Positions 18,091 through 22,531 of a DNA stretch of 64,000 nt are shown here, one piece after another. A program made the translations under genes and the position numbers. Source of the stretch: Apilactobacillus xinyiensis (GTDB lineage: Bacteria > Bacillota > Bacilli > Lactobacillales > Lactobacillaceae). Position 1 is the first letter of the stretch, and each line of letters begins with the position of its first letter. The stretch is from positions 62,001-126,000 of the forward strand of contig NZ_BPLL01000001.1 of the NCBI RefSeq assembly GCF_019656235.1, written 5' to 3'. The notes beneath the pieces are model-generated. The model was not told the origin of the DNA and ran no database searches. It was given only the letters and a program-made list of their open reading frames with translations.

Positions 18091-18699
18091 TTATTTTAAA
18101 TTAGAATTTACTACCCATTGATTGTAAGTGTCAATTGTTTTAGGATATACGTTTTTGTTATTTAAAATTAGGTATTCTAAAGTATGCTTAGTCTGATAAG
18201 CTACACCTAACTCCAAATTTTTATAAGTAATTTCTCTAGCTTCATCAACACCAGGAAAATCTCTGCCCATTTCTATATAGTCAGCCATATAAACAATTTG
18301 TTCTAATTTAGACATGTATTTAGCGCCTACTGTATGGTGTTTTACAGCATTCAATACATCAACATTTTGAATACCTAACTCATGTTGAACAAATAAAAAT
18401 CCAACTTCTCCATGCCATATAGCATTGCCATAATTAAGTAAGTTACTGTCTAAATGGTATTTATGAATAGCGTTAATAAAATCATCATCTGGTCTTTGCT
18501 TAGCATAATCATGAACTAACCCACCTATACTAGCTAACTCAACGTCAACATCATTAAGTTTAGCTAGCTTAATTGCCATTTGTTCCACTCTTAAAACATG
18601 TTCAAATCTAGATTTTGTTAAAGCATTTTTTAAACGAATTACTAATTCTTCACGACTAAATGGAACAATATTTTGTGTGTAAACTATTGTATTATCGAT
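18091..18699 (-). CDS. yqeK: YqeK HD-domain hydrolase with non-canonical start
   Basis: YqeK hydrolyses diadenosine tetraphosphate symmetrically in Firmicutes. The HD signature GGLVHDYAKQR is clear. The first in-frame GTG (18588) would drop the conserved block FSREELVIRLKNAL...RFEHVLRVE, which carries the first metal-binding histidine. That block continues in frame to a TAA at 18717-18715 without any ATG, GTG or TTG. AAGGAG (18715-18710) overlaps the end of nadD; the in-frame ATC at 18699 is 10 nt from it, ATT at 18708 only 1 nt. ATC start is my inference; it gives 202 residues, near family length. Confidence 0.75.
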   Translation of the reverse strand: MDNTIVYTQNIVPFSREELVIRLKNALTKSRFEHVLRVEQMAIKLAKLNDVDVELASIGGLVHDYAKQRPDDDFINAIHKYHLDSNLLNYGNAIWHGEVGFLFVQHELGIQNVDVLNAVKHHTVGAKYMSKLEQIVYMADYIEMGRDFPGVDEAREITYKNLELGVAYQTKHTLEYLILNNKNVYPKTIDTYNQWVVNSNLK

Positions 18700-19282
18700 A
18701 AATTGAATGCTCCTTTATATAACAATTAACTTTATCTGGAATTAAATATCTAACCGACTCATTACAACTAATTTTATTTCTAATCATAGTTGATGAAATA
18801 TCTATATCAGGTAAATCTACCCAAATAACTGGATAATCACTTTCAGGAATATAGTTTTTTCGTTTAACTCCTACAAAGTGTACTAGTTGAAATAATTCAT
18901 CAATTCGATGCCACTTAGGCAGATAATCTACCATATCTCCACCAATAATGAAATAATAATCATTATTAGGATTTTGATTGCACAAGTTAAGCATCGTATC
19001 ATAGGTATAACTAGTACCCTTTCTATTTACCTCAGACAATTCCAATGCTAATTTATCATTATCCTGAATTGCTAATTTAATCATATCAACTCTTAAATTA
19101 GCATCTATAGCATATTTTTTATCTACATGTGGTGGAATATAATCCGGCATTAAATAAACCTGATCTAAATTTAAACTATCACAAACTTGATCAGCTATAA
19201 ATAAGTGTTCATTGTGAATGGGATTAAATGTGCCACCAAATATACCAATTTTGTGTTTTACTTTATTATTTAAAGAAATCAA
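18692..19282 (-). CDS. nadD: nicotinate-nucleotide adenylyltransferase
   Basis: Adenylates nicotinate mononucleotide in NAD synthesis. It has GIFGGTFNPIHNEHLFIAD at the N-terminus, the PPHV loop, and the IDISSTMIRNKI motif with the ISSTxxR signature. The T/HxGH motif reads HNEH, with Glu in place of the usual Gly. Length 196 is normal. It lies between yhbY and yqeK, and its 3' end carries the ribosome-binding site of yqeK. Confidence 0.93.
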   Translation of the reverse strand: MISLNNKVKHKIGIFGGTFNPIHNEHLFIADQVCDSLNLDQVYLMPDYIPPHVDKKYAIDANLRVDMIKLAIQDNDKLALELSEVNRKGTSYTYDTMLNLCNQNPNNDYYFIIGGDMVDYLPKWHRIDELFQLVHFVGVKRKNYIPESDYPVIWVDLPDIDISSTMIRNKISCNESVRYLIPDKVNCYIKEHSIYR

Positions 19283-22003: not shown

Positions 22004-22531
22004 TTATTTTTTATCGCTTGAATTAGGTGCGAGCATTAAGAACATACTTCTACCGTCCATTTTTGCTCGTTGGGTAACATTAGCAACATCTGATGTAGAA
22101 TCTGCCATTCTGTTTAGAACATCACGACCAATTTCTTTATGTGTGATGGCACGTCCTTTGAAACGGATAGATACTCTAACTTTTTCACCTTTGCTCAAGA
22201 ACTTTTTAGCATTCTTAAGCTTAGTATTAAAATCATTTGTATCAATTGTAGGGCTAAGTCTTATTTCCTTAACACTAACAACCTTTTGTTTCTTTCTAGA
22301 CATACGAGCCTTCTTTTGTTGTTCAAAACGGTATTTCCCATAATCTAATATCTTAGCTACGGGTGGTTTTGCCTTAGGAGCAACTACAACAAGATCTAAA
22401 CTTGCATCTTCAGCCATCTTTAAAGCCTCAGCCGTTGATTTAACTCCTAATTGATCACCGTTTGCACCGATTAAACGAACTTCTCTAGCTCTAATTCCAT
22501 CATTGACCATCATATCGTTTGCTATGGCAAT
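22004..22531 (-). CDS. infC: translation initiation factor IF-3 (ATT start)
   Basis: IF-3 keeps subunits apart and checks start-codon choice. The first ATG (22513) begins [16 protein letters not shown], but homologues carry about six more residues (MTIAKD-like). Here the frame upstream reads ATT GCC ATA GCA AAC GAT back to a TGA, so ATT at 22531 is the best start (175 residues). GGAGG lies only 3 nt before ATT and 9 nt before ATA at 22525, so the exact codon is uncertain. Non-AUG infC starts are known in E. coli and bacilli and permit autoregulation. Confidence 0.88.

Follow-up and report, generated by a model that had tools for sequence, protein, structure and literature searches.

The yqeK gene of the window (the whole 64,000-nt stretch of DNA analysed here) is likely translated from an AUC codon. 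The proposed start is an ATC at 18697-18699 on the minus strand, opening a coding sequence of 202 residues plus stop (18091-18699, minus strand). It is preceded, at a distance of 10 nt, by an AAGGAG Shine-Dalgarno (SD) motif (18710-18715, minus strand), which lies within the end of the upstream nadD gene (18692-19282, minus strand, TTG start), where it serves as Lys-Glu codons. The final 8 nt of nadD (ATCGATAA) overlap yqeK. On the minus strand nadD ends with ATA AAG GAG CAT TCA ATT TAT CGA TAA (stop at 18694-18692), and the yqeK frame reads AGG AGC ATT CAA TTT ATC GAT AAT ACA ATA GTT after its own upstream stop. The coordinates of the original prediction were all verified, namely a TAA at 18717-18715, the AAGGAG at 18715-18710, an ATT at 18708-18706, the ATC at 18699-18697 and the first in-frame GTG at 18588-18586. 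The 42 codons between that TAA and the GTG contained no ATG, GTG or TTG. By itself, a start-less open run of this length is unremarkable in AT-rich DNA. The missing start is noteworthy because the stretch encodes the family N-terminus and the equivalent of a metal-binding histidine, because the ATC aligns gap-free to the ATG of 14 of the 16 Apilactobacillus genomes compared, and because the separately sequenced Apilactobacillus ozensis DSM 23829 carries the identical ATC.

The yqeK frame comprises 207 codons and its product scored 158.3 bits against TIGR00488 (symmetrical Ap4A hydrolase, cut-off of 70.15), with an HD domain recognized by Pfam. The nadD product scored 294.4 bits against NF000841 (cut-off of 197). 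The label "Ap4A hydrolase" used in the original prediction was correct but incomplete. Ap4A is reported to be hydrolysed by YqeK (PMC11857287), and the YqeK domain is reported to cleave NaAD-type dinucleotides as well; in mycoplasmas, where YqeK is fused to NadD, these include wrong products of NadD (PMC9426524). Alignment to the Streptococcus pyogenes enzyme (8jja) matched the metal ligands His29, His58-Asp59, His91, His117 and Asp135 (S. pyogenes numbering) as H, HD, H, H and D, respectively. The residue aligned by phmmer to His29 is the histidine of RFEHV, encoded by the CAT at 18598-18600 (minus strand) upstream of the GTG, and this first ligand is retained only when translation starts upstream of that codon. 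His29 of S. pyogenes YqeK is described as a Mg ligand, its alanine mutant being inactive (PMC11857287). The claim that the family N-terminus and an HD-domain histidine lie ahead of the first GTG was confirmed.

Between the window and A. ozensis, dN/dS was 0.049 over the whole yqeK ORF (dS of about 1.3) and 0.23 for codons 9-42, which precede the GTG, with the N-terminus evolving faster than the core (pN of 0.118 vs. 0.049). The N-terminal block holds a conserved Tyr and Pro, common to the genus, to Lentilactobacillus and to a second ATC-bearing lineage, genome G048 (see below), and sits upstream of both the first in-frame TTG of A. ozensis and the GTG of the window. Judged from the sequence, the stretch ahead of the GTG must be translated, because it contains the His29 equivalent, its codons 9-42 are under purifying selection and its N-terminal block is conserved. 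Synonymous constraint at the N-terminus gave no support, since fewer synonymous changes were seen there but the ratio was equally low in 28% of 89 genes.

These observations bear on the possibility that an internal standard codon (GTG 18588 in the window, TTG in A. ozensis, ATG in G048) serves as the start and yields a shortened YqeK. The three codons are the earliest standard ones of their respective frames, and in A. ozensis and G048 an internal start would be possible, the TTG and ATG lying 13 and 24 codons past the ATC. However, the three occupy differing places (37 codons past the ATC in the window) and lack a clear SD, codons 9-42 are under purifying selection and the Tyr/Pro block is conserved upstream of them. 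The GTG at 18586-18588 (minus strand) is moreover without an upstream SD, and its use would remove the metal-binding histidine. We have thus rejected it as a start and consider internal initiation unlikely. The same data were confronted with the view that the yqeK of this clade is a pseudogene in decay, having lost its start codon neutrally. Loss of the start codon would be a typical first lesion, and the genomes are small. Yet the ORF is full length in the window, A. ozensis and G048 and passes the family cut-off, and a dN/dS of 0.049 at a dS of about 1.3 since the shared ATC is in line with that of the neighbouring genes. Decay of this kind is very improbable.

The AUC start is best appreciated in the genus comparison. 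The window comes from a near-complete assembly of 1.45 Mb, whose nearest named relative is A. ozensis DSM 23829 (87% in YqeK, with 70-76% for the other Apilactobacillus). At the nadD-yqeK junction, the AAGGAG motif and the 10-nt spacing were identical in 16/16 Apilactobacillus genomes, being followed by ATG in 14 and by ATC in the window and A. ozensis. This alignment across related genomes, the check that the original prediction had suggested, showed that the ATC falls at the ancestral ATG position. The 8-nt overlap with nadD is common to the ATG-starting relatives, reading for instance ATGAATGA there and ATCGATAA in the window. A sequencing error as the cause of the ATC was ruled out, since the same codon is present in the independent A. 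ozensis DSM 23829 assembly. Among named relatives, a standard start was found at the conserved place in 79 of 80, with A. ozensis as the sole exception. The 79 comprised 54 ATG, 17 GTG and 7 TTG identified by script together with an SD, plus one locus (L071) in which the motif was missed and an ATG was recognized by eye.

Since the ATC and the SD double as nadD codons (Tyr-Arg and Lys-Glu, respectively), the fact that they are conserved does not by itself testify to their use by yqeK; NadD coding may account for part of the conservation. On the other side, Lys-Glu was encoded by AAG GAG in 6 of its 150 occurrences in the ORFs surveyed, and this rarity favours a maintained SD. We have also weighed other near-cognate codons as the start, namely the ATT at 18708 and, counting codons from stop to stop, the ATA at codon 10 and the ATT at codon 16, all of which are in frame and ahead of the conserved block. 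The first lies 1 nt from the SD, and ATC, ATA or ATG occurs at that place in relatives. In A. ozensis the ATA corresponds to TTA and the codon-16 ATT, which is without an SD, to ATC. The ATC alone recurs in the window, A. ozensis and G048 at the place of the ancestral ATG, so that a start at any of these other codons is quite unlikely. The preference for AUC 18699 over AUU 18708 was borne out by this position of the ATC and by its retention in A. ozensis and in an independent lineage.

That lineage came from a survey of 80 further genomes of the family, with species partly overlapping the named set, in which 79 had a standard start and the exception was locus L151 of genome G048. The survey flagged eight rows, of which L151 alone was real; inspection revealed an ATG in the other seven, immediately behind the stop in five of them, the last two being L224 and L222 (the latter flagged since the motif ended the scan early). 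In G048, the sole genome of its genus in the survey, the yqeK start reads AAGGAGCACCAGCTTT-ATC-ACTAAG and nadD ends with TAT CAC TAA. Its ATC occupies the same codon position, with AAGGAG and 10 nt ahead of it, as in the window and A. ozensis. When an ATH pattern was searched for at the junction, 397 Lactobacillaceae genomes gave 11 matches, of which three were nadD-yqeK junctions (the window, A. ozensis and G048). The remaining eight fell in unrelated frames and were at chance level, the reversed control pattern giving nine.

The junction sequences also speak to the idea that a NadD-YqeK fusion arises from a +1 frameshift ahead of the stop codon of nadD, in the manner of the mycoplasma fusion. 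Fusions of the two proteins are known in mycoplasmas (PMC9426524), the yqeK frame is +1 relative to that of nadD, and both proteins are hit by the fusion model NF005519, with scores under its cut-off. Against this, neither TAT CGA TAA (window) nor TAT CAC TAA (G048) showed slippery +1 re-pairing by eye, and ATG-starting relatives have the same 8-nt overlap with separate genes. We regard such frameshifting as extremely improbable.

In a tree of NadD, YqeK and RsfS from 45 taxa, Apilactobacillus was monophyletic with a support of 100. In this tree G048 grouped with Philodulcilactobacillus (93) and then with Lactobacillus sp. Sy-1 (95), both of which start yqeK with ATG, and the position of the A. 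ozensis pair inside Apilactobacillus had a support of 51. A single group formed by G048, the window and A. ozensis was rejected (AU p=0.0005, with 5000 replicates, a number that is few by the program's own warning). Because this grouping was rejected, the ATC probably arose twice, with G048 lying outside Apilactobacillus. Two gains would also be the more parsimonious history, since a single gain would have to be followed by several reversions to ATG. As to its identity, the tree and the published relatives (PMC10284405) suggest that G048 may be an Acetilactobacillus or a Nicoliella.

We have then considered near-cognate starts in other genes. Across 148 kb surrounding the window, yqeK alone had no standard start close to the aligned position, both in the comparison with A. 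ozensis (1 of 107 genes) and in that with G003 (1 of 69). The infC gene of the window, coding for IF-3, probably starts at the ATA at 22523-22525 (minus strand), a known kind of near-cognate start; GGAGG lies nine nt upstream and the ATA is present in 16/16 genus genomes. An in-frame ATT is found two codons upstream of this ATA, merely 3 nt from the SD. The window's genome (G000) also carries, on contig 32 (13022-14032; L311:1479-1497), a ytxK-like gene with a methyltransferase-like product (Pfam YtxK_like). In this genome and in A. ozensis its frame reads AAG GAG CTG AGT CTG CTG GCT, SYMDAF is not preceded by any standard start, and several relatives have GTG CTG or ATA CTG at that place. The ytxK-like gene of the window's genome probably starts at CTG.

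Two more genes without a standard start were found in 140 kb of G048, the NAD(P)H-hydrate dehydratase gene (nnrD) and the ytxK-like gene. In the start comparisons, four rows (D_43 among them) resembled antisense or spurious ORFs and were set aside. The nnrD gene (L269:12556-13410; Pfam Carb_kinase) shows GGAG, 8 nt and ATC, and G003 has ATG there. This ATC was absent from the 16 other genomes with a readable start; the motif was not matched in the nnrD of G000 (L295) or in the ytxK genes of L312 and L313, which were left out. With yqeK and nnrD, G048 presents two apparent ATC starts on NAD-related genes. The IF-3 of G048, like that of G050, shares 68% identity with the window's, and those of G046, G080 and G189 share 80-85%. 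With its divergent IF-3, G048 may be more permissive of near-cognate starts. The occurrence of such starts in more than one gene of the group weakens the idea that yqeK is singled out.

Regarding how the AUC would be used, ribosomes finishing nadD would stop at the UAA at 18694-18692, be held by the AAGGAG at 18715-18710, and start again at the overlapping AUC by means of the usual initiator tRNA, whose CAU anticodon would mismatch at the third position. Part of the yqeK initiation may be direct. We infer that YqeK output would be lower than from the ancestral AUG and that NadD would thus be made in excess of YqeK. The overlapping stop and start, with the SD inside the upstream nadD, have the geometry of a coupled pair, and the location of SD and start within nadD makes coupling plausible. 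Judging from this anatomy, nadD-yqeK coupling likely supplies the ribosomes. The geometry is likewise present in relatives and, since the 8-nt overlap also occurs in those starting with ATG, coupling would not be specific to the ATC species.

The initiator tRNA looks ordinary, with two CAU tRNAs carrying the GGG/CCC stem in a survey of 49 places (47 gave a gene with ARAGORN, one gave no gene and one was cut by a contig end). Consequently, the AUC would be read by CAU with a third-base mismatch. An altered initiator tRNA was rejected; the only tRNA-Ile(GAU) found is without the GGG/CCC initiator stem. An altered IF-3 was likewise discarded as the cause. Eight of its columns were unique to the window and A. 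ozensis relative to the 14 other genus genomes, but several of these residues match other genera, and thus no clear cause emerged in IF-3. RNA structure masking the yqeK start received no support either, the folds being no better than those of shuffled sequences (z of 0.94 in the window, 1.11 in A. ozensis and -1.48 in G048).

Published work offers precedents for such a start. In Staphylococcus aureus, near-cognate starts are reported to give about 10% of the AUG yield in poor medium, and the ccpN start up to 30% in rich medium (PMC13009471). The GTC start of sigR is reported to be repressed by IF3 (PMC5472188). In Escherichia coli reinitiation, non-AUG codons are described as usable with matching initiator tRNA mutants, an SD being of help and a higher IF3 level inhibiting the process (PMC2268962). 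Counting against easy use of AUC, IF3 excluded this codon with weak third-base pairs in one in vitro system (PMC10158994). By analogy with the reinitiation precedents, the 8-nt overlap and its SD would offer a setting in which AUC could work and IF-3 could matter. The throttle put forward in the original prediction, that is, an IF-3-sensitive AUC with a physiological role, is possible in view of precedents in other genes.

Why the ATC persists may be seen in two ways. With less YqeK relative to NadD, NaAD might be spared or Ap4A might rise. It fits equally well that AUG was lost almost neutrally, the loss being tolerated as little YqeK is needed, because a JCVI-Syn3 strain with an inactivated YqeK site is reported to have grown without a defect (PMC9426524). 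We tentatively advance a broader picture, which as a whole we find rather doubtful. It would have AUG changed to AUC at least twice, independently, in flower- and bee-associated lactobacilli, heritably setting the NadD:YqeK ratio. Reinitiation at the overlap would tolerate the AUC and keep YqeK low, at a still useful level, and IF-3-sensitive, in a group that has more near-cognate starts (CTG or ATA in the ytxK-like gene, ATC in nnrD of G048).

To our knowledge, few bacterial genes besides infC have been documented with an AUC start. Our literature searches, judged mostly by titles and the openings of abstracts, yielded no earlier report of an ATC-started yqeK. As far as these searches went, the kind of start is known (infC, pcnB, sigR, ccpN, pncA), and the codon, the gene and the probable double origin are unreported. 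The gene concerned encodes an Ap4A/dinucleotide hydrolase with a signalling and NAD-quality role, whose production the ATC should keep low. Annotation restricted to ATG, GTG and TTG would strip the active-site histidine from the predicted YqeK. The gene can be compared among relatives with an ATG start, the two ATC species and a further ATC lineage of probably separate origin, and nature in this way supplies an experiment to ask whether the choice of start codon is less strict where ribosomes terminate and reinitiate.

Among known near-cognate starts, those of ccpN (AUA, in S. aureus and Bacillus subtilis) and cvfC1 (AUU, in S. aureus) come close to yqeK, as conserved near-cognate starts with a strong SD in a Firmicute, and reduced yield is reported for both (PMC13009471). 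They differ in having extended SDs and mapped starts, whereas the AUC of yqeK lies in an overlapping upstream gene and was deduced from sequence. E. coli pcnB (AUU, cited in PMC13009471) is likewise a chromosomal gene kept low by an inefficient start, although codon, gene and context all differ from those of yqeK. Borrelia burgdorferi pncA (AUU) also encodes an enzyme of NAD metabolism, and its database version is described as being without a needed N-terminus owing to the near-cognate start (PMC13398362); its start was proved by biochemistry and structure, whereas that of yqeK comes from comparison of genomes. Streptomyces sigR (GTC) is, like yqeK, a gene with a rare start that annotation misses, and is described as IF3-repressed (PMC5472188), but sigR occupies the upstream position in its coupled pair, and yqeK the downstream one. 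With Streptomyces infC, yqeK would share the ATC start itself (PMC5472188).
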